Positions 1,435-40,551 of a stretch of DNA of 40,551 nt are shown here, in pieces; positions within the stretch are counted from its first letter, which is position 1; each line of letters opens with the position of its first letter. Source of the DNA: Nitrospirota bacterium (GTDB lineage Bacteria; Nitrospirota; 9FT-COMBO-42-15; HDB-SIOI813); the NCBI GenBank assembly GCA_016212215.1, contig JACRGV010000106.1, positions 1-40,551 of the forward strand, read 5' to 3'. A model generated the notes under the pieces. The model was not told where the DNA came from. It worked only from the letters and a program-made list of their open reading frames with translations, and did no database searches. Made by a program: the position numbers and the translations under genes.

Positions 1435-1471
1435 TGAAATATCATCCTGCTACTTTAAACCCAGAAACATT

Positions 1472-1624
1472 CATGAGCCGGGGATCACAAAGGGGAATGA
1501 AAATCAGCGGGACAAGAAAACCCCACCCTCACCCTAACCCTCTCCCTGAGGGAGAGGGGGCTATGTTGATTCCCTCCCCTTCAAGGGGAGGGGTAGGGTG
1601 GGGATGGGGTTGATTTTCGGATGA
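1472..1624 (+). repeat. Modular GC-rich palindromic repeat: flank plus CCCCACCC payload
   Basis: The flank (CATGAGCCGGGGATCACAAAGG through ATGAAAATCAGCGGGACAAG) is followed by a payload of two nested palindromes: CCCTCTCCCTGAGGGAGAGGG and CTCCCCTTCAAGGGGAG. The payload as a whole is bounded by CCCCACCCTCACC and GGTGGGGATGGGG. It ends in GATTTTCGGATGAA, the shared terminal sequence of this family, and the ATG in that terminus is the start codon of the next gene. Near-identical payloads are at 32412-32515 (plus) and 40425-40520 (minus). Confidence 0.85.
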
Positions 1625-2346
1625 AACAGATAATTAATACAGGCAAATGGACTGTTGAGGAATTAGACCGCATCCTGCATGAATCATCCTGCATAGAAGA
1701 TGCCGGGGCACGGATAGAATTTATCTCAGGGATATTTCTTGATGTTGGTTATTCAGGATCAACTTTGATTGGAGACGTAACTACGCCGGAGGTCTTTGTT
1801 GTTAATCTGGCAAAGGTGGACTGTTTTACATTTATTGATTATGTTGAGGCAATGAGGCATTCAGGTTCTTTTTCGGGGTTCATGGAAAATCTTGAGCGGG
1901 TGAGGTATCATGCAGATCTAATTTCCTTTGAAAACAGGAACCATTTTTTTACAGACTGGATTGAATATAATGGAGGGTTCGTTGAGGATGTTACAGATAT
2001 AGATGGAGGACACAAGGCAATTCAAGTCATAAAAAAGTTAAATCTCAAAAAAGATGGCACTTATGTTGTTGATGGGATAAAACCGGTAGAACGGAATATT
2101 GAATACATCCCTGCAAATGCATTGGATAACACTGTGATAGAAAGGCTTAAAACCGGCGACTATGCAGGTATATACTCGGATGAAGAGGGATTGGATGTCT
2201 CGCATGTGGGAATAATTATCAGGGCAGGAGATAAGATTTATATTCGTCATGCATCTTCACGACCGGCAATCAGGAAAGTGCTTGATGAGGATTTTATAAA
2301 ATATATGGCTGAGAAACCCGGTTTGATTGTATTAAGACCTAAGTGA
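1621..2346 (+). CDS. DUF1460 family, NlpC/P60-like N-acetylmuramoyl-L-alanine amidase/peptidase
   Basis: 241 residues matching the DUF1460 family of papain-fold peptidoglycan enzymes. Recognisable blocks are GARIEFISGIFLDVGY, LIGDVTTPEVFVVNL, KVDCFTFIDYVEAMR with the presumed nucleophile Cys68, ENRNHFFTDW, and DVSHVGIIIR with His195 followed by IRHASS. It would cleave muropeptides. No signal peptide is visible, so it may act in the cytoplasm or have lost its export signal. The ATG belongs to the terminal TTTTCGGATGAA of the upstream repeat, so the present start context is repeat-derived. It converges on, and overlaps by 8 bp, a NagZ-like gene, which fits muropeptide recycling. Confidence 0.85.
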   Translation: MKQIINTGKWTVEELDRILHESSCIEDAGARIEFISGIFLDVGYSGSTLIGDVTTPEVFVVNLAKVDCFTFIDYVEAMRHSGSFSGFMENLERVRYHADLISFENRNHFFTDWIEYNGGFVEDVTDIDGGHKAIQVIKKLNLKKDGTYVVDGIKPVERNIEYIPANALDNTVIERLKTGDYAGIYSDEEGLDVSHVGIIIRAGDKIYIRHASSRPAIRKVLDEDFIKYMAEKPGLIVLRPK

Positions 2347-3943
2347 CTATCTTCACAGGCAGGCGGCCATTAAACTCTATCTTACCCATCAGGCAATTCA
2401 TCACAGCACGCTGAGTCTTTTCATTATTGCCATAGGCCGCGATAAGGACATCTGCATCACTGAAATATCTCAGGACATAAGGGCTTCCCAAGGAGATAAC
2501 AATAGATTTGCCGGAACTTTTAAGTATATCTATAAGAAGGTCTTTCTCCTGTTCATTAATGCCTGATCTGCCTTTCCATCCGGCGGTTTCAGAGAAGATG
2601 GCGAAGATGGTGGTGGAATGTGAAAATCCTTCCGGCGGGGTTGAAAAACCCTTCGTATCCACTCCCATGCCATCCCACACCGAAGGGTCATAAAACTTCT
2701 TCTCCCCTGCAATGATCAATTGGACATTTTCATCCGCAAATCCCTCCGGCGGGGTAAGAAAACCCCGCCTATCCAAACCTATATCAAGGATAGGTGGGAC
2801 ATTCTTGTCCCATCCATTTTCATTTCTCCCTTGAAAGATATGTGGAACATTCCTGCCCCGCCCATTTTCATCATCCTTTGTGAGGCCAGCTTTCACAAGT
2901 GTAATTGCCCTCTCTGTAATATGCTCAGAAAGGGCTTCGTGTTTATTGTAATCAATATGTACTTTTTTTATTTTACTCAGGTCTCTCTTTGCCTTTATGA
3001 TACGCTCTACAGCATTATCAATAATCCCTTTATCAAGCATCCCTGAATATATTGCCTCTTCAAGTTGTTTTACAGTTACGTCTGGGTCAGTGGGATGGAG
3101 AAGTATATCAATGCCTGCTGACATACACCTTGCAGGGACATTATCAAAATCATCGAGGGCAGACATATTTAATGCATCAGTGATTATGAGGCCGTTGAAG
3201 CCGAGCTTTTTTCTTAATATCTCTGTGATTATCTTAGCGGATAGGCTTGCAGGGGCTGAGTCAACAGCCGGTAATGTTAAATGTCCGACCATTATACTCC
3301 TTACCCCGGCATTAACTGCCTCAACAAAAGGTACTAACTCCGTCTTCACAAGTTCATCATAAGATTTTGTTATAACGGGAAGTGCAATATGAGAATCTAT
3401 TGAAGTATCGCCATGACCGGGGAAATGCTTTGCACAAGATATGAGACCTGTTCCCTCAAGAGCCTTTATATATTCAGTGCCGAACCATGACACATCTCCG
3501 GCATTGTCAGAGAACGCCCTTGTGCAGATAATGGGATTGTCAGGATTAGAATTGATATCCAGAACCGGGATGAGAGGCATGTTAATTCCGACATCTGTTG
3601 CCTCAAGTGCAATCGCCCTGACTGCATCTCTCAACATGCAGACATCTTCCGGATTATGCTTATCTACAGCCGCTGAGAACGCCATTTGAGAAGGAAAAAT
3701 TGTACAGCCATTAATCTGCTGTCCGACACCGCGTTCTATATCCGAGGCGATGAACAAAGGAATCTCAGCTAAAGACTGCATCTCATCAATAAATGACCTG
3801 ATACTTTCCAACTCTCCTCCGAAGACTATGAAGCCGCCTATCCCTTTCCTGACAAGCTCAATGATTCTTGCCCTGTAAGCCTCTGAATGAATATCATGGC
3901 CATTAAGCCTGCTGATGATGAGCTGGTATAATTTTTGTTGCAT
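2339..3943 (-). CDS. nagZ: Glycoside hydrolase family 3 beta-N-acetylhexosaminidase (NagZ-like) carrying repeat-derived inserts
   Basis: The N-terminal TIM barrel has the GH3 hallmarks: FIASDIERGVGQ, the KHFPGHGDTSIDSH loop (residues ~172-184, containing the NagZ His/Asp pair), SIMVGHLTLP, and LIITDALNMSAL with the nucleophile Asp near residue 256. It should remove GlcNAc from anhydro-muropeptides. I choose ATG 3943 (MQQKLYQLI); the GTG at 3979 lies in an adjoining repeat. The protein is far longer than single-domain NagZ (~340 aa) because a second Rossmann-like domain follows (VQLIIAGE, KSIVISLGSPYVLRYF). Residues ~354-406 and ~425-443 read as translated copies of the genomic palindromic repeat (PPILDIGLDRRGFLTPPEGF; VDTKGFSTPPEGF), kept in frame. 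Whether the enzyme tolerates them is unknown. Confidence 0.85.
   Translation of the reverse strand: MQQKLYQLIISRLNGHDIHSEAYRARIIELVRKGIGGFIVFGGELESIRSFIDEMQSLAEIPLFIASDIERGVGQQINGCTIFPSQMAFSAAVDKHNPEDVCMLRDAVRAIALEATDVGINMPLIPVLDINSNPDNPIICTRAFSDNAGDVSWFGTEYIKALEGTGLISCAKHFPGHGDTSIDSHIALPVITKSYDELVKTELVPFVEAVNAGVRSIMVGHLTLPAVDSAPASLSAKIITEILRKKLGFNGLIITDALNMSALDDFDNVPARCMSAGIDILLHPTDPDVTVKQLEEAIYSGMLDKGIIDNAVERIIKAKRDLSKIKKVHIDYNKHEALSEHITERAITLVKAGLTKDDENGRGRNVPHIFQGRNENGWDKNVPPILDIGLDRRGFLTPPEGFADENVQLIIAGEKKFYDPSVWDGMGVDTKGFSTPPEGFSHSTTIFAIFSETAGWKGRSGINEQEKDLLIDILKSSGKSIVISLGSPYVLRYFSDADVLIAAYGNNEKTQRAVMNCLMGKIEFNGRLPVKIVT
2621..2662 (-). repeat. Partial copy of the palindromic repeat tail inside nagZ
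   Basis: On the minus strand GGATACGAAGGGTTTTTCAA followed by CCCCGCCGGAAGGATTTTCA resembles the tail of the repeat (GGATAGGCGGGGTTTTCTTA, CCCCGCCGGAGG, ATTTTCGG). It is translated in the same frame as the larger insert, giving GFSTPPEGF versus GFLTPPEGF. Confidence 0.6.
2729..2900 (-). repeat. In-frame copy of the GGGACAAGAA-type palindromic repeat inside nagZ
   Basis: Read on the minus strand this contains the family flank (CTCACAAAGGATGATGAAAAT), a diverged first payload (GGCGGGGCAGGAATGTTCC), then ATGAAAATGGATGGGACAAG, AATGTCCCACCTATCC, GGATAGGCGGGGTTTTC, TTACCCCGCCGGAGG and the terminus TTTGCGGATGAA. No stop codon occurs in the nagZ frame. Intergenic relatives lie at 25040-25150, 6900-6994 and 32760-32857. 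Confidence 0.8.
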
Positions 3944-3959
3944 GGTTGTTATCTGAAAG

Positions 3960-4200
3960 CCTCCATAGCTCACCCCCACCCTGTCCCTCCCCCCTCAAGG
4001 GGGAGGGGATTAAGAGAAGGCGGGGTAAGAAAACCCCGCCTATCCATTTCTACGAGGATAGGCGGGACTTTCTTGTCCCGCTGATTTTCATTCCCCTTTG
4101 TGAGCGCCCCGCCTCATGACGGTTCACTCGAAAATCTCCATAGCTCACCCTCCCCCTTCCCCCCTCCCATCAAGGGAGGGGGGAAGATGGGGGGGACGTA
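3960..4200 (-). repeat. Cluster of palindromic repeat modules between nagZ and the lipoprotein gene
   Basis: Three modules abut. 3963-4010 is a CCCTCCCCCCTCAAGGGGGA palindrome with the terminus GGTGAGCTATGGAG. 4019-4128 is a minus-oriented GGGACAAGAA payload (CCCCGCCTATCC, GGATAGGCGGGAC, CTTGTCCCGCTGATTTTCAT) plus its flank hairpin. 4130-4200 is a second CCCCCTCCCATCAAGGGAGG module. The last module supplies the final residues and stop codon of the neighbouring lipoprotein gene. Confidence 0.8.
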
Positions 4201-6864: not shown

Positions 6865-6994
6865 AAAATGGAACTCCGATGAACCTATGTTCACAAATGT
6901 CAATGAAAATCAGCGGGACAAGAATGTCCCGCCTATCCTCATAGAAATGGATAGGCGGGGTTTTCTTACCCCGCCGGAAGGGATTTTCGCATGA
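6865..6994 (+). repeat. Palindromic repeat, GGGACAAGAA payload
   Basis: The flank CGATGAACCTATGTTCACAA (a degenerate version of the hairpin GGTGAAC...GTTCAC) is followed by ATGAAAATCAGCGGGACAAG, AATGTCCCGCCTATCC, ATGGATAGGCGGGGTTTTC, TTACCCCGCCGGAAGG and the terminus ATTTTCGCATGAA. It lies between two minus-strand surface-protein genes and ends 8 bp from the stop of the C25 peptidase gene. Confidence 0.85.
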
Positions 6995-12921: not shown

Positions 12922-13099
12922 TTACCTTTTCAGGAGTAATTTATGGATGGCTTCAGTCTCTGCGGAGGGTTCTATGCCGAGGTGGGTAGATAGGAATGTT
13001 TTTAATCTTTTATACGCCCGTATTGCCTCAGTACGGCTGCCTGTGCGTTGCCGGCAGAGCATGAGGCGCTGGTATAGTCTCTCGGCAAGTTCATATGCC
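12922..13099 (-). pseudogene. Relic: C-terminal ~57 residues of a BTAD-family regulator
   Basis: The minus strand translates as ELAERLYQRLMLCRQRTGS, RTEAIRAYKRLKTFLSTHLG, IEPSAETEAIHKLLLKR and a TAA, colinear with the end of the intact regulator at 20602 (ELAEKLYQRLMLCLQRTGNS...LGIEPSRETAEIYKAILAG). Upstream the frame hits a stop, so only this fragment survives. The reading frame and many third positions are preserved, so decay is fairly recent or this part was under selection. Confidence 0.8.
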
Positions 13100-13170
13100 T
13101 ACATCCATTTAAAGATAACTTAAATTTCTCTCAAGTTTTTATTAAGATAAAAACATTCTGGGGGATGAAT

Positions 13171-15378: not shown

Positions 15379-17211
15379 CTAAAACGACTCAAGCCCATAC
15401 CTAACCTCCGTCCCGTTAGTAAATGTAAATACTCCTCCCTTGAGATCAAGATTGTGTTTTGCAACACCCACCTTTGTCTCAATATCAAGGCCTTCATCAC
15501 AGTAATACTCGGTATAATTCTGTGACCTGTTGGACACAAACCCCTTCTGATAATATATGTCCTTGTCCTTTTCAACCTTTGATTTATAATCTCCTTCCCA
15601 GAACCAGCCGGTAGCATCCTTTGTCATCAGGAAAACAGAATCATGGAAATCCTGTTTAATACCATAATATGTACTGTTATAAACAGTGCCGTCATAGGAT
15701 ATGCCATATCCGCCGGTGTAGAATTGATTGTGTATATTATCGAATGGCGCAAGTGATGTTGTAATACTGAGGGTGAGAGTGTCCTTGTCACGTGGAGGTA
15801 CCCCATTATAAATCTCCTTACTGTTTACCATGAATGCAATATAATCAGTCCTTAATCTGAAGGATACATTGAGACTGCTAATATCCATCCCTGCGAAACT
15901 TATATCCCCGTCAATGAAATCATAAAGCGGTCCATGGTCGAAATTATATTTCACCCCTTTCAGTGATATAGAGATTTTTATATTTGATATGAATGTCTCT
16001 TTATCAAATAAGTTGTATGGTATTAAATCGCCGGTGTGATACGTCCCTAAGTCTTTTGCAAAATACAATTTAAAACTTATTCCCGTCCCGTCCTTTGACA
16101 CCTTGTATACTCCATCATTAAATGAAATCTTATAGTCAGAGAGGCTTGTAAAATCAATGCCATTAAGGACAATGTCTTCAATAAGCCCCTTTATAATATC
16201 TGAACTGGTACTGCCTTTATCCCTGTAAGCCCCTACAATAACAAGATTTCCATTAAAGAAATCCATGAACTCGTCCCTGCTTAAATCTTTCCCGCAAAAA
16301 TCATACTTAACAGTTATTGTTATATTGTCAGTTACCAGTGATGATGACTCCCTGACTGAAATAGTCGCTGAACCTCCGTCTGTTCCAGTTACACGTCCAT
16401 TTTTATCAACAGTAAGAACCAAAGGGTCTGAAGATGTCCATGAGAATCTATCTGATGAAAGCGGTAATTTATTTCCGGAACTATCGTAAGCAGACGCAGA
16501 CAGTTGTGCTGTTCTCCCTGTTTGAATATCCTGCACATCTGGGGTAATTCGCAAATAAGCAATATCATACTTTACATTCATTATCACTGATATGCTTTTC
16601 CCTGACACAGACTCAGTAGCAGCAATCTGAGTACTCCCTTCTGATAAGCCTGTGACAATCCCATTCTTATCAACAGAGGCAGCCGATGGAGTTGAAGATG
16701 CCCATGAGAATCTGTCTGAAAGAAGCGGTAGTATATTTCCAGAGCTATCATAGGCAGACACAGTGAACTGTACAGTCTTGCCAATTTTAATCTCCTGAGT
16801 ATCAGGTATCACACGCAAATAAGCAATGTCATACGTTACCTTTATTGTTATTGATGTTTTTATCCCGGAAGCAGATTCCGCCGCAGAAAGCTGTGTACTG
16901 CCTTCTGATACTCCTGTAACAAGTCCATTCTTATCAATAACAGCAATTGCCGTATTCGCAGAACTCCATGATATGCTCTCATTTGAGACTGATACCGGAT
17001 TTCCTGATGTATCATACGCTGATGCTGTCAGAAGCATTGCTTTCCCAACCACCACAGAGGGGTTTGCAGGAGTAATGCGTATCTCTTGAATCTTTGGTGC
17101 CTGTTGTTCATTCTCAGGCGTCTCCACATGAGATGTACAACCATCCAGTAAAACTGCAATAGAAAATAATACAACGATTACTTTACATGAGAGAATATTT
17201 TTTTTATTCAT
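15379..17211 (-). CDS. Lipoprotein with three Big_2 (bacterial Ig-like) domains
   Basis: 610 residues from ATG 17211, preceded by AGAGGT; GTG/ATG sites at 17244 would nearly abut the upstream gene. A signal peptide (ILSCKVIVVLFSIAVLLDGC) ends in LLDGC, an imperfect lipobox. Three tandem ~85-residue Big_2 domains follow, each of the form ITP..Q.I..GKT.QLTASAYDSSGN, FSWTSS.P..A.VDKNGIVTG, GS.QI.A.ES. The C-terminal ~280 residues are unassigned and contain three Cys. Big_2 domains are common in adhesins. It lies 35 bp downstream of the PKD protein fragment and probably belongs to its operon. Confidence 0.8.
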   Translation of the reverse strand: MNKKNILSCKVIVVLFSIAVLLDGCTSHVETPENEQQAPKIQEIRITPANPSVVVGKAMLLTASAYDTSGNPVSVSNESISWSSANTAIAVIDKNGLVTGVSEGSTQLSAAESASGIKTSITIKVTYDIAYLRVIPDTQEIKIGKTVQFTVSAYDSSGNILPLLSDRFSWASSTPSAASVDKNGIVTGLSEGSTQIAATESVSGKSISVIMNVKYDIAYLRITPDVQDIQTGRTAQLSASAYDSSGNKLPLSSDRFSWTSSDPLVLTVDKNGRVTGTDGGSATISVRESSSLVTDNITITVKYDFCGKDLSRDEFMDFFNGNLVIVGAYRDKGSTSSDIIKGLIEDIVLNGIDFTSLSDYKISFNDGVYKVSKDGTGISFKLYFAKDLGTYHTGDLIPYNLFDKETFISNIKISISLKGVKYNFDHGPLYDFIDGDISFAGMDISSLNVSFRLRTDYIAFMVNSKEIYNGVPPRDKDTLTLSITTSLAPFDNIHNQFYTGGYGISYDGTVYNSTYYGIKQDFHDSVFLMTKDATGWFWEGDYKSKVEKDKDIYYQKGFVSNRSQNYTEYYCDEGLDIETKVGVAKHNLDLKGGVFTFTNGTEVRYGLESF

Positions 17212-20601: not shown

Positions 20602-23436
20602 CTACCCCGCCAGAATAGCCTTATAGATTTCCGCTGTTTCCCGTGATGGTTCTATGCCGAGGTGGATGGAGAGGAGGGTTTTTAATCTTTTAAAAGTCCT
20701 TACTGCCTCAGTACTATTGCCTGTGCGTTGCAGGCAGAGCATGAGGCGCTGGTAAAGTTTCTCGGCAAGTTCGTCTATCTCTATCCCTTTGTTGTAACAG
20801 GCAATCGCGTTGTCTGTTACTCCCCTTTTCTCGTGATACTGGCCGAGTCTGCTGATTGCTGTAATGAATCTGTCTCTAAGACGTTCGCGCTGTGAAAGTG
20901 TCCAAGGCTCTTTTATATCACCGGGCAGAAAGTGTCCCACGTACATAGTGATGGCCTTTTGGATGCATGGGATTCCCCTTCCCGCTTTACCGCCTGCATC
21001 AATATCCTCAGACTGTTTCAGGAGGTGATTGAAACCCCATGTATCCACCCAGCAGTGTTGCCTGTCTATGGCCAGTCTGCTGTTGTTGTAGATGACTGTC
21101 TTGTCACTTCCTATCAGTCTCCTTAGCCTGCAGAGCGCCATTGAAAATGCCTGATTAGCCTGGTCTCCATCAGAGTCAGGCCAAAGTGAGTCAATAACAT
21201 CTTCCTCTGCAGCTCCTTTCCCCCCTGCGGCAATAAGCATCTTTAGTAAGGACAGCGGCTTTTTCTGTACCTTCCCGGAAAACTCTACTTTCTTGTTATC
21301 TACCCATATCTCAAACCTGCCGAGGGTATATATCTTTATATCCCATGGCCAGTCAAGGACATCCGGCGAAGGTGTGTAATAGGCAGTCAGATTATTCAGC
21401 CGGATCAATTCCCTTACATGAGGTACTTCAATCCCTTCTGCACATAGTCGGGCTGCAGTAGGTAAGGTGGTCAGCATAAATATAGAAATCCCTGTTGTCT
21501 TAGACAGTGCCATGGCTCCCCTGAATTTATCACAAAAGATACTCCTCCTTGCTTTCATCATTGCAGACATTGCTTCTAATAGCAGGCACAGGTATTCATG
21601 AAAAATGCTGTTTACAGCCTTGCCTGTCCTTCGTATTTCAGCAATATCTCCTTTTAAAGATACGGACTTGCCGGCCTCAAGCCTGTATAACGCAAGTACG
21701 TATCTGTGGAAGTTCAGCATAAGAGGCCCGCCCAGTTCTTCGGAATGTCTGACACACTCCTCTGCATGTTCCAGAGCACAATTAATATCAGAAGTGAACA
21801 TGGCTAAGTGCATTGCAATATTTGACATCTGGTGATGATAAAAGACCCTGCTGTAACTGCGGATTTTGTCCATCTCTGCGGTTAATTTCTGGGAATATTT
21901 TTTTGCTGAATCTTTATCACCAAGCAATACTGAATTATAAATCCCGGTTCCATAAAACATAACATTCAATAACTGTATCCCTGTTTTTTCAACAATTCTG
22001 AGACACTCATCAGTCATGTCCATTGATTTCTTCAGTTGTGCAGTGTAGACATAATACATTGCAACAGAGCGGAGCCAGAAAAGGTGAGGTAGATAATGGC
22101 TGACAGAGGTATTATAAGCCTGTGACACAATATCCAAAACAACACTTGCCTTGGCTATCCTGCCTAACCAGAGATAGTATAGAATAATAGTGTGACCGAC
22201 CATAAGCTTACGGTTTATATCCTTGGAATTTTGGATGATATCCAATGCACGGCCTTCCCAATATGCGATTGCCGGATTTTGAGGCTGTCTGAACATCATG
22301 GCGCTGAATATAGCGGATACGGTACGTTCTTCTATCCCTCTTGTTGGAAAATCCGGGTAAGCTGCTATTATGCCCTCAATGTCCTGCAGATAGCGGTCAA
22401 GCGGTTTAAATGCCTTCCACTCATACAGGTATGTCTCTACAATGCCGCTCCATGCCTCAAATATACTGGCTGCATCACCGGCTGTTTTAAACAGCCGGTA
22501 CGCTGATTCGAGACTGGATCTTGCTTTCTCAGGGTCTGCGGACATAAGGCACATTCCAAGATAGTAGAGTAATCGCGGAGATTGGTTCATTACTTCAGCA
22601 GGTACAGACGTAATCCATGACTCCAGCACATTATACCTTCCTTGTGATAACAGCAATTCTGACTGTTCTGATATAACCTCCTTAAGTCCCGGCCACTTTT
22701 CCGCTTTAATAAAGAGATGTGCGGCATTTTCTGGAAAACCTGCATCTTTTAGCACATAAGCGGCAGTTGCAGTAATTTCCCTCCACTCATCCTTATTAAA
22801 CCGCCCTTTAGCATAAGACTGGAGAAACTCCCTGAACATGGGATGATACTGATATATTGCATCCTCATGATTAAGAATATTTATAAAGAATCTACCGGCG
22901 TTTAATTGGTAAAGGATGTCTCCACCGGCAGGATTTAATGTAAGTTTCAGGGCCATTTCAACCGTAATTTCATTAAAGAGTGATATCTTCACTAAAAAGT
23001 CCTGTGTCCCTGCATTAAATTTCTTAAAGACTTCTCTCATAAAGTAATCAAAGAGTACCTTCCTGCCTGTATGTCCTACACCAAATGACTTATCCTTTCT
23101 TTTAATGCCTTCTTTAATATATCCCGTCATCAAAACAAGCCCTGCTGTCCATCCCTTTATAATATCCTGTATCCTGCAAACCTCGTCATTACCTGACAGA
23201 CGGCATCCCAGCAACTTTGCTATCCCTGATACATCTTCATCAGACAGAAGAAGCTCTTCGCTGTCAATAATATCCATTTCACGATTTGTAATATGTCTCG
23301 CAAATATAGATGGAGGGGATGTCCTGCTTATAATGATAATGCTGCAATCGGCCGGTATCTCTTTAATGGCAGTATTGATGATTTCCATGAAGGTTGAGTT
23401 AGCTGAAAACACCCCCCCAGCCCCCCCCTTGAACAA
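20602..23436 (-). CDS. MalT/BTAD-type transcriptional regulator, C-terminal part (split gene)
   Basis: 944 residues in this frame from a TTG. Residues ~13-60 continue a STAND/NACHT-type ATPase (EIINTAIKEIPADCSIIIIS, RTSPPSIFARH). A winged-helix region and a long TPR-like helical array follow (residues ~150-690). Next comes an OmpR-like DNA-binding domain (IKIYTLGRFEIWVDNKKVEF, KPLSLLKMLIA, ALCRLRRLIG) and a bacterial transcriptional activation domain (LAEKLYQRLMLCLQRTGN, LGIEPSRETAEIYKAILAG). This is the architecture of MalT-like/SARP-like activators. The N-terminal Walker A segment is in the upstream frame (23399-24025); a repeat insertion and a one-base shift separate them. Confidence 0.8.
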   Translation of the reverse strand: MFKGGAGGVFSANSTFMEIINTAIKEIPADCSIIIISRTSPPSIFARHITNREMDIIDSEELLLSDEDVSGIAKLLGCRLSGNDEVCRIQDIIKGWTAGLVLMTGYIKEGIKRKDKSFGVGHTGRKVLFDYFMREVFKKFNAGTQDFLVKISLFNEITVEMALKLTLNPAGGDILYQLNAGRFFINILNHEDAIYQYHPMFREFLQSYAKGRFNKDEWREITATAAYVLKDAGFPENAAHLFIKAEKWPGLKEVISEQSELLLSQGRYNVLESWITSVPAEVMNQSPRLLYYLGMCLMSADPEKARSSLESAYRLFKTAGDAASIFEAWSGIVETYLYEWKAFKPLDRYLQDIEGIIAAYPDFPTRGIEERTVSAIFSAMMFRQPQNPAIAYWEGRALDIIQNSKDINRKLMVGHTIILYYLWLGRIAKASVVLDIVSQAYNTSVSHYLPHLFWLRSVAMYYVYTAQLKKSMDMTDECLRIVEKTGIQLLNVMFYGTGIYNSVLLGDKDSAKKYSQKLTAEMDKIRSYSRVFYHHQMSNIAMHLAMFTSDINCALEHAEECVRHSEELGGPLMLNFHRYVLALYRLEAGKSVSLKGDIAEIRRTGKAVNSIFHEYLCLLLEAMSAMMKARRSIFCDKFRGAMALSKTTGISIFMLTTLPTAARLCAEGIEVPHVRELIRLNNLTAYYTPSPDVLDWPWDIKIYTLGRFEIWVDNKKVEFSGKVQKKPLSLLKMLIAAGGKGAAEEDVIDSLWPDSDGDQANQAFSMALCRLRRLIGSDKTVIYNNSRLAIDRQHCWVDTWGFNHLLKQSEDIDAGGKAGRGIPCIQKAITMYVGHFLPGDIKEPWTLSQRERLRDRFITAISRLGQYHEKRGVTDNAIACYNKGIEIDELAEKLYQRLMLCLQRTGNSTEAVRTFKRLKTLLSIHLGIEPSRETAEIYKAILAG

Positions 23437-24969: not shown

Positions 24970-25153
24970 GTATCCCCCTTTAGAAAAGGGGGGCAGGGGG
25001 GATTTGAAGCGAGGATTTTCGGATGAACTCCCATGAACCGAGGGTTCACAAAGGGGCATGAAAATCAGCGGGACAAGAAAGTCCCGCCTATCCTCGTAGA
25101 AATGGATAGGCGGGGTTTTCTTACCCCGCCGGAGGTCATTTTCGGATGAATAT
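24970..25153 (+). repeat. Palindromic repeat, complete flank plus GGGACAAGAA payload
   Basis: 24970-25001 is a short CCCCCTTTAGAAAAGGGGGG hairpin. Then come the boundary GATTTTCGGATGAACTCC, the flank hairpin TGAACCGAGGGTTCA, CAAAGGGGCATGAAAATCAG, the payload CGGGACAAGAAAGTCCCG plus CCTATCC...GGATAGG and GGCGGGGTTTTCTTACCCCGCC, GGAGG, and the terminus TTTTCGGATGAA. This is the cleanest full copy in the window. Confidence 0.9.
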
Positions 25154-28389: not shown

Positions 28390-28480
28390 AAAGATAACCC
28401 CATCCCCACCCTAACCCTCCCCTTGAAGGGGAGGGAATCTCTGAGATTACACCTACCCCTCCCCCGTCAAGGCGGAGCGA
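28390..28480 (-). repeat. GC-rich repeat module (CCCCACCC payload)
   Basis: CCCCATCCCCACCCTAACCC, CTCCCCTTGAAGGGGAGGGA, then a second half-palindrome CCCCTCCCCCGTCAAGG. It matches the right half of the payloads at 1560-1610 and 32470-32515 in reverse orientation and lacks the flank hairpin, so it is a partial copy. Confidence 0.75.
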
Positions 28481-28495
28481 ATTTCTTTTGCAATT

Positions 28496-28656
28496 CTTAT
28501 TTCTTACGTCTTACTTTTTACTCCAGCCTTCTTACTTCTTACTTCTTACTTCTTGCCTCTTACTTCTTACGTCCACCTTCAGTCTTCAGCCTTCAGCCTT
28601 CTTACTTCTTACTTCTTACTTCTTACTTCAACCTTCAACCTTCTTACCTCTTCCCT
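28496..28656 (+). repeat. Single-arm array of 23 seven-nucleotide words
   Basis: Perfect 7-nt register for 161 bp. Eight words are CTTACTT; the rest are close variants (CTTACGT, CTTGCCT, CAGCCTT, CAACCTT, CTTACCT and others). No mirror array is present nearby. It is open in more than one plus frame and would encode Leu/Ser/Tyr/Phe-rich peptides (FLLLTSYF type), which I do not regard as genes. It lies 50 bp before livH, which lacks a clear ribosome-binding site. Confidence 0.9.
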
Positions 28657-28707
28657 GCCATCTCCCCTCATATTGACAATCTTCCGTTATAAAGTGTATT
28701 TTAACGC

Positions 28708-32370: not shown

Positions 32371-32861
32371 ATTTTCGGGTGAACTCCTATGAACCGAGGG
32401 TTCACAAAGGGCCATGAAAACCCCACCCTCACCCGGACCCTCTCCCTGAGGGAGAGGGTGCTTAGTTTTTATCCCCTCCCCTTCAAGGGGAGGGTTAGGG
32501 TGGGGATGGGGTTGATTTTCGGATGAACCGACATGAGCCTTCGGCTCACAAAGGATGATGAAAATGAGGCCCCCTCACCCGTGCCCCCCTCCTGCCTCCC
32601 CCCGCAAAGGAGGGGGGAGGAATTTGGTAGGAATTTTATTGCAGCTCTCCCGCCGGGCGGAGAGGGTACATGGTTTTATTCCCCCTCCCTTGACGGGAGG
32701 GGGTTAGGGGGAGGGTGAACTATGGAGATTTTCGGGTGAACCGTCATGAAACGGGGTTTCACAAAGGGACATGAAAATCAGCGGGACAAGAATGTCCCAC
32801 CTATCCTCATAGATTTGGATAGGCGGGGTTTTCTTACCCCGCCGGAGGTATTTTCGATTGA
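32371..32861 (+). repeat. Tandem array of three palindromic repeat units with different payloads
   Basis: Unit 1 (32371-32530): TTTTCGGGTGAAC boundary, hairpin TGAACCGAGGGTTCA, CCCCACCC payload. Unit 2 (32518-32735): TTTTCGGATGAAC boundary, hairpin TGAGCCTTCGGCTCA, CCCCCTCACCC payload with GGAGGGGGGAGG and CCCTCCCTTGACGGGAGGG. Unit 3 (32725-32861): TTTTCGGGTGAAC boundary, hairpin TGAAACGGGGTTTCA, GGGACAAGAA payload ending GCCGGAGG, TATTTTCGATTGAA. The last unit supplies the Shine-Dalgarno GGAGG and TTG start of the next gene. Confidence 0.9.
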
Positions 32862-39578: not shown

Positions 39579-39630
39579 ATACCCACCTCCTTTTTTGGTT
39601 GCCGAATATTTATCATTTAGCAGATAGCAC

Positions 39631-39686
39631 CTTATTCTTACTTCTTACTTCTTACTTATTACTTATTACTTATTACTTATTCTTGT
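39631..39686 (+). repeat. 7-nt-word array between the ferritin-like and DtxR-type genes
   Basis: CTTATTC, TTACTTC, TTACTTC, four TTACTTA, TTCTTGT in register. Single arm, no mirror nearby. On the minus strand it lies in the 5' region of the ferritin-like gene, ~50 bp before its ATG. Confidence 0.85.
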
Positions 39687-39715
39687 CTAATCAGCATTCA
39701 TTTGTCAACTACAAA

Positions 39716-40399: not shown

Positions 40400-40412
40400 G
40401 CACTTCTCCTTT

Positions 40413-40551
40413 CATCCGAAAATCAACCCCATCCCCACCCTACCCCTCCCCTTGAAGGGGAGGGAATCAACATAGCCCCCTCTCCCTCAGGGAGAGGGTT
40501 AGGGTGAGGGTGGGGTTTTCATTGCCATTTGTGAGCCACCGGCTCATGACG
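40413..40551 (-). repeat. Palindromic repeat (flank plus CCCCACCC payload) at the right edge
   Basis: The minus-strand copy is nearly identical to the repeat at 1472-1624: terminus TTCATCCGAAAATCAACCCC, CTCCCCTTGAAGGGGAGGGA, ATCAACATAGCCCCCTCTCC, CTCAGGGAGAGGGTTAGGG. It then runs into the flank CATTTGTGAGCCACCGGCTC and the window edge. The palindromic core of the flank (TGAGCCACCGGCTCA) again has a different stem from other copies. Confidence 0.88.

Follow-up and report, generated by a model that had tools for sequence, protein, structure and literature searches.

Palindromes that code for protein are familiar mainly from reduced intracellular bacteria, such as Rickettsia and Wolbachia, in which relaxed selection readily accounts for them. 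BIMEs, in turn, are extragenic REP mosaics. The Rickettsia palindromic elements (RPEs) are inserted in frame, a guanylate kinase carrying one of them is translated and active (PMC2229807, PMC10969869), and the inserts of RPE-4, RPE-6, and RPE-7 map to solvent-exposed regions (PMC3767692). Intragenic GTAG/CGTC REPs, short palindromes that often form dimers, are found in coding regions of free-living bacteria, including genes for DNA synthesis and repair, and a neutral effect has been argued for them (PMC3733652).

The stretch of 40,551 nucleotides analyzed here (hereafter, the window) contains a gene for a NagZ-type enzyme with repeat DNA inside it. Our preferred reading, to which we assign a probability of about 0.88, is that a non-autonomous dispersed palindromic element was inserted into this gene with the frame kept open. 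Insertion, as opposed to copying by recombination, is not proven, because no transposase could be tied to the repeat and no clear target-site duplication was seen. The original prediction had pointed to the Rickettsia elements as a parallel, which holds for the way of working, the likeness being one by description. Like the RPEs and Wolbachia elements, palindromes of about 100–150 bp that are genic and intergenic and lie in frame in unrelated conserved proteins, the element is a short unit (here, of ~120 nt). However, its host is Nitrospirota-like and not a member of the Rickettsiales, 51-nt covarying connector hairpins alternate with interchangeable cores, and the orientation bias extends outside genes. 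The GTAG/CGTC REPs resemble it as short palindromes within coding regions, but they measure 20–40 bp and carry GTAG or CGTC tags, in contrast to a ~120-nt unit with a three-hairpin core, and the GTAG REPs accompany RAYT transposases, none of which was found in this genome. With BIMEs, it shares an array organization in which palindromic units and linkers alternate as a mosaic, although here some hosts are predicted to translate both connectors and cores, and at least eight unrelated kinds of core exist. Finally, MITE-like repeats with ORFs (Correia 107-bp, ERIC, YPAL; PMC2229807) are also non-autonomous, form hairpins, and give in-frame gene fusions, whereas here target-site duplication was not clearly seen, and the two transposase families searched yielded no parent transposon. 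Because of its lineage, its unit size, and the result for RAYT, the element was not filed as an RPE, compared by description, or as a RAYT-type REP. Searches of the open-access literature turned up no description of this repeat; the kind is already known (Rickettsia RPEs, intragenic REPs), and the family, its modular build, and the lineage appear to be new.

The NagZ gene of the window

The gene for a GH3/NagZ-type beta-N-acetylhexosaminidase occupies positions 2339–3979 of the minus strand and encodes 546 amino acids with no stop. Its product matched Glyco_hydro_3 (E 8.8e-73) and Glyco_hydro_3_C of Pfam, the motif KHFPGHGDTSIDSH is intact, and KHFPGHGDT is kept. About 50 additional residues (364–417) correspond to repeat DNA and read AGLTKDDEN-GRGRNVPHIFQGR-NEN-GWDKNVPPILDIGLDRRGFLTPPEGF-ADE, with the peptide NVPPILDIGLDR spanning the insert in the predicted translation. 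At the DNA level, this first insert (~2729–2890, minus strand) consists of the 3' part of a connector hairpin (2864–2895, positions 20–51 of the connector model, encoding AGLTKDDEN), a half core copy (DENGRGRNVPHIF; GRGRNVPHIF) at 2836–2871 with 8 mismatches in 36 positions against the 5' half of the core, and a full core copy (NENGWDKNVPPILDIGLDRRGFLTPPEGFAD) of spacer type B at 2732–2823 (nhmmer 78.4 bits, positions 3–92 of a 93-position model), all on the minus strand. A second, decayed core copy (VDTKGFSTPPEGFS; residues 439–453) was located on the same strand at 2619–2662 (nhmmer 24.5 bits), in a loop of the GH3-C domain. Both PPEGF pieces predicted for this protein, with no stop introduced, are therefore present, the one at 2619–2662 being the weaker; the proposed extent of the repeat needed correction, as the first insert is longer and also includes the half copy and the connector piece.

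That the domain resumes on both sides of the insert was borne out by the NagZ relatives from the 41 genomes searched, among which the family members matched residues 5–364 and 412/418–544 and skipped the repeat between them. At the first site, the orthologues in the alignment (rows L066 and L068, in a wrong reading frame, were not counted) have just a few residues. Homologues carrying the same residues had been named as what would contradict an insertion; those from the genus, the family, the phylum, and named Nitrospirota MAGs lack the residues of the first site, and the nearest named matches are Nitrospirota-type MAGs. In addition, the full core copy contains a 33-nt exact match to the intergenic copy at 25103–25135. 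It is thus extremely improbable that these residues belong natively to the GH3 domain or that their likeness to the repeat is due to chance or convergence: the GFLTPPEGF tail, loosely aligned with a native GLLPV stretch, is all that speaks for native residues, the orthologue alignment already refutes them, and the exact match, together with ~300 copies per genome, excludes a chance resemblance.

The AlphaFold model of the enzyme (mean pLDDT 84, pTM 0.86, above 90 for most of the GH3 catalytic domain) placed the insert as a loop between strands 360–363 and 419–425, with pLDDT values of 36–53 over most of it and below 50 at residues 367–395 and 401–416. In this model, the insert is a disordered loop and the enzyme fold is intact. 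Because the frame is open, we infer that the insert is translated, so that enzymes of this cell apparently contain a stretch of peptide from mobile DNA in a floppy loop.

Build of the element and its copies in the window

The unit is of ~120 nt, with a core of ~67 nt placed between 51-nt connectors and the element ends TCATGAGC...GGATGAAC. Terminal inverted repeats (GAAAATC/GATTTTC) are present, of only 7 bp, and they are paired in the fold, where the core and its ends (~86 nt) form a cloverleaf of this 7-bp closing stem and three hairpins, with an energy of −41.4 kcal/mol and z scores of −4.65 (RNA) and −5.78 (DNA). The connector, ATTTTCGGATGAAC-NNNC-hairpin-CACAAAGGNNNATGAAAAT, flanks most cores. 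Its stem covaries at three pairs (15 cells), none of 500 shuffles scored equally high, and sliding the partner abolished the pairing; this covariation comes from 20 rows that we chose within one genome, with relatedness controlled by the slide test only. At least eight unrelated kinds of palindromic core occupy the same slot between connectors, the DKNVPP core being the commonest (51 of the 100 slots found), and connectors and cores also form arrays in which palindromic units alternate with linkers.

Intergenic copies had been announced at 6.9, 25.1, and 32.8 kb, and all of them were confirmed, as a connector with a core (6871–6992, plus strand), a connector with a core near the consensus (25015–25148, plus strand), and an array (32371–32859, plus strand) in which three connectors are followed by a CCCCACCC core, a GAGGCCCC core, and a DKNVPP core, respectively. 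In addition to these three, another intergenic core (4019–4091) with its connector (4084–4135) was found on the minus strand upstream of the GH3 gene, together spanning 4019–4135. A connector followed by a CCCTCCCC/GGGAGGG core and the start of the next connector lies at 1466–1625 (plus strand), and the same core with a connector reappears at 40410–40550 (minus strand), with a 111-nt exact inverted match to 1516–1626. No match to Rfam was obtained within the window.

Other repeats were also observed. Heptamer repeats (CTTCTTA and GCAGTAA units) lie between genes and also, read in frame as the peptides KLEARSKKLEARS and SSKQLAVSSKQ, within a series of similar membrane/TPR proteins; the loci noted are 28480–28668 and 39600–39704 of the window and, in contig C47 of this genome (G000), 47535–56875 (in L173) and 72397–74520 (in L174). 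Finally, the window contains a 264-nt tandem duplication (16385–16912, 72% identity) and a 170-nt pair (12941–13110 and 20621–20790, 79% identity).

Reading frame, orientation, and host proteins

A census taken regardless of frame in 1.09 Mb, corresponding to 36% of the genome and 81% coding according to our own simple gene caller, recovered 110 full copies, which extrapolates to ~300 per genome. Ninety were intergenic, 13 were inside genes, and 7 lay at gene edges; given the uncertainty of start codons, the edge copies near gene starts were not counted as in-gene. The density was thirty times lower in coding (0.015 per kb) than in intergenic DNA (0.44 per kb). All 13 internal copies of this unselected census are on the sense strand and in one phase. 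Of 43 intergenic copies, 38 have no stop in the frame used, the other five frames being open in 0, 7, 6, 11, and 24 of them, and the probability of finding 13 of 13 in one frame would be ~2e-5 if insertions were evenly spread over stop-free frames, a figure that excludes the hosts found by peptide search, which are frame-biased. With the latter included, 35 of 36 internal copies are in one open sense frame. This conservation counts against the element being cut out of the mRNA or bypassed by the ribosome, in which case the protein would never contain it, because a removed insert needs no open frame; the compact cloverleaf, with its closing stem, energy, and z score as RNA, and the covarying connector hairpin would suit such a process, but in view of the frame counts and of the lack of a 3' stop in 12 of 12 in-gene copies, we consider it very unlikely.

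In-gene copies also differ from the rest in two details. Spacer type B, longer by one codon, is present in 9 of 10 in-gene copies and in 11 of 71 outside genes (p 6e-6), and a 3' end without TGA is present in 12 of 12 and 27 of 83, respectively (p 7e-6), this end reading FSDE in genes. Survival inside an ORF demands the open 3' end but not the B spacer, which may be the mark of an older wave; the bias in spacer subtype could also reflect a coding-adapted subfamily, a point against the preferred reading. As for the peptide itself, the codon positions of in-gene copies diverge about equally (mismatch of 0.124, 0.100, and 0.098), so it seems unselected, and no purifying selection on it was seen by this comparison. 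The host genes are under purifying selection, with dN/dS values of ~0.20 for nagZ (versus that of the congener) and ~0.14 for two further genes, dS being high. Co-option of the peptide for interaction, regulation, or localization, with selection keeping the element in proteins, could be read from its being recognizable in every host and from the systematic differences of in-gene copies in spacer and 3' end; however, no more than the need to preserve the frame lies behind the open 3' end, and the even mismatch across codon positions, the unrelated hosts, and the predicted disorder point the other way, as does the variable presence of the element between congeners, and co-option is consequently improbable.

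Among the intergenic copies in co-directional gaps, 51 follow the direction of transcription and 10 oppose it (p 1e-7). As this bias exists outside genes too, the reading frame is not the sole cause of orientation, which could result from the element entering transcribed DNA or the lagging strand, or from selection on mRNA hairpins. Antisense use of the repeat was rejected as a general pattern. A search with the antisense frame that is open in most copies gave two ORFs of more than 250 aa, which seem to extend upstream past the true start codons, and the other antisense frame has a TGA in nearly every copy. One true antisense case remains, a core in an antisense open frame of KdpB (L275, contig C22 of G000, near 303–383), followed by other repeats and cut by the contig end; it is the only antisense in-frame case seen.

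The PPEGF peptide, which the original prediction proposed to look for in other proteins, recurs in ~30 other long ORFs of the genome. According to Pfam and sequence reading, the hosts include NagZ, DnaX, MutL, PolA, PolB, UvrD, an AddA-like helicase, a uracil-DNA glycosylase, ValS, PheS, Fmt, a FabG-type SDR, CobU, a NadB-type protein, and a PyrK-type subunit with two copies. Further hosts are a histidine kinase, radical SAM proteins, a lytic transglycosylase, a P-type ATPase, a U32 peptidase, an FG-GAP/HEAT protein, and others. The insert splits Pfam domains in FabG, CobU, Fmt, and PolB. Solved structures align on both sides of it in CobU (8yep) and the histidine kinase (5uht), around the two inserts in PyrK (5ksw), and in FabG, where residues 11–138 and 186–299 align with 25–151 and 156–269 of 4jro. 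In PolA, the copy sits between blocks alignable with Taq polymerase, so no junction was read there. Since the genome is made of 164 contigs, many of them ending in the repeat, a misjoining of repeat-rich reads in the draft assembly was considered; but the joins are frame-perfect in ~30 genes, in-gene copies are more diverged than intergenic ones, and inserts of the same kind are found in three other assemblies (G001, G002, and G007), so that such an artefact can practically be set aside.

Two further observations on the hosts were made. Proteins of DNA replication and repair account for ~7 of ~27 hosts (L191, L194, L180, L247, L251, L256, L192), which looks like an excess as a raw count without gene lengths. 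In addition, a tyrosine recombinase of the XerC/D type (L210; G007, contig C50, ORF from 1614) carries an in-frame insert between conserved blocks.

Distribution among relatives and mode of spread

The core peptide was detected in this genome, in its congener G001, in G002, and in G007, plus one weak match elsewhere; among 245 genomes of the phylum, its own included, five matched, four of them in the same family and the fifth weakly. The connector pattern gave 198 matches in this genome, 36 in G002, 0–3 in the remaining members of the family, and none in any other of the 245. PilM of G002 carries the element. Between the congeners, its presence and absence are reciprocal: CheA has the element in G001 and not in G000, the UvrD/AddA-like helicases of both have one of their own at different places, and the DUF4388 protein has it in both.

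At the second site of NagZ (window 2619–2662), the congener has NPPIPPFLKGGQGGF, encoded by AAATCCCCCCATCCCCCCTTTTCTAAAGGGGGGGCAAGGGGGATTT, in the same GH3-C loop, and this palindrome is itself a dispersed repeat with 12 matches in G001 and 61 in G004. GWC2_42_11 and Kmv42 have related but differing C-run palindromes there, G005 has a GTCCCCGA palindrome, and the other relatives have no insert; the loci of this loop in relatives are L062 near 2689, L091 near 4192, L092 near 4189, and L064 near 2713. One GH3 loop therefore took different palindromes in different lineages, which makes this loop of the C-terminal domain an apparent hot spot for in-frame palindromes.

The search for a mover gave no Y1 transposase (RAYT, PF01797) in this genome, which is 100% complete, with control genomes being positive, so mobilization by RAYT was rejected. 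This absence excludes a RAYT-type REP only, because CGTC REPs also occur without a RAYT transposase. Spread by phages or plasmids was likewise discarded, as no match was found in viral contigs, phages, or plasmids. No significant within-copy match indicative of target-site duplication appeared at 29 boundaries (best p 0.06 before correction); the 5' end of the element follows AA, often in an RTGAA-like context.

Under the preferred reading of an inserted non-autonomous element, new copies would arise through an enzyme acting in trans, which possibly recognizes the connector hairpins. Most insertions into coding DNA would disappear, since a stop usually occurs in the majority of the six frames and ~40 added residues are too many for most sites. 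The surviving copies would be those in sense orientation, with an open frame and a 3' end without TGA, in a surface loop or linker, where their translation would give a disordered segment that hardly affects the enzyme. With time, in-gene copies would drift, because nothing selects the peptide, and their precise deletion would be hard. More tentatively, and at present as a doubtful extension, the family might be a modular selfish system in which the covarying connector hairpin marks the ends of the mobile unit, at least eight unrelated palindromes can take each other's place as its core, the unit is copied along the direction of transcription, and one subfamily with a compatible frame is specialized for residing within genes.

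In this case, the inserts are found in a 3-Mb environmental genome, ~30 of them, some in core enzymes of replication, repair, and tRNA charging and in cofactor enzymes. The build of connectors and interchangeable cores and the GH3 loop with multiple palindromes bear on how such DNA spreads without a known transposase, and the congener, with or without individual inserts, provides natural pairs in which to ask what mobile DNA does to working enzymes.
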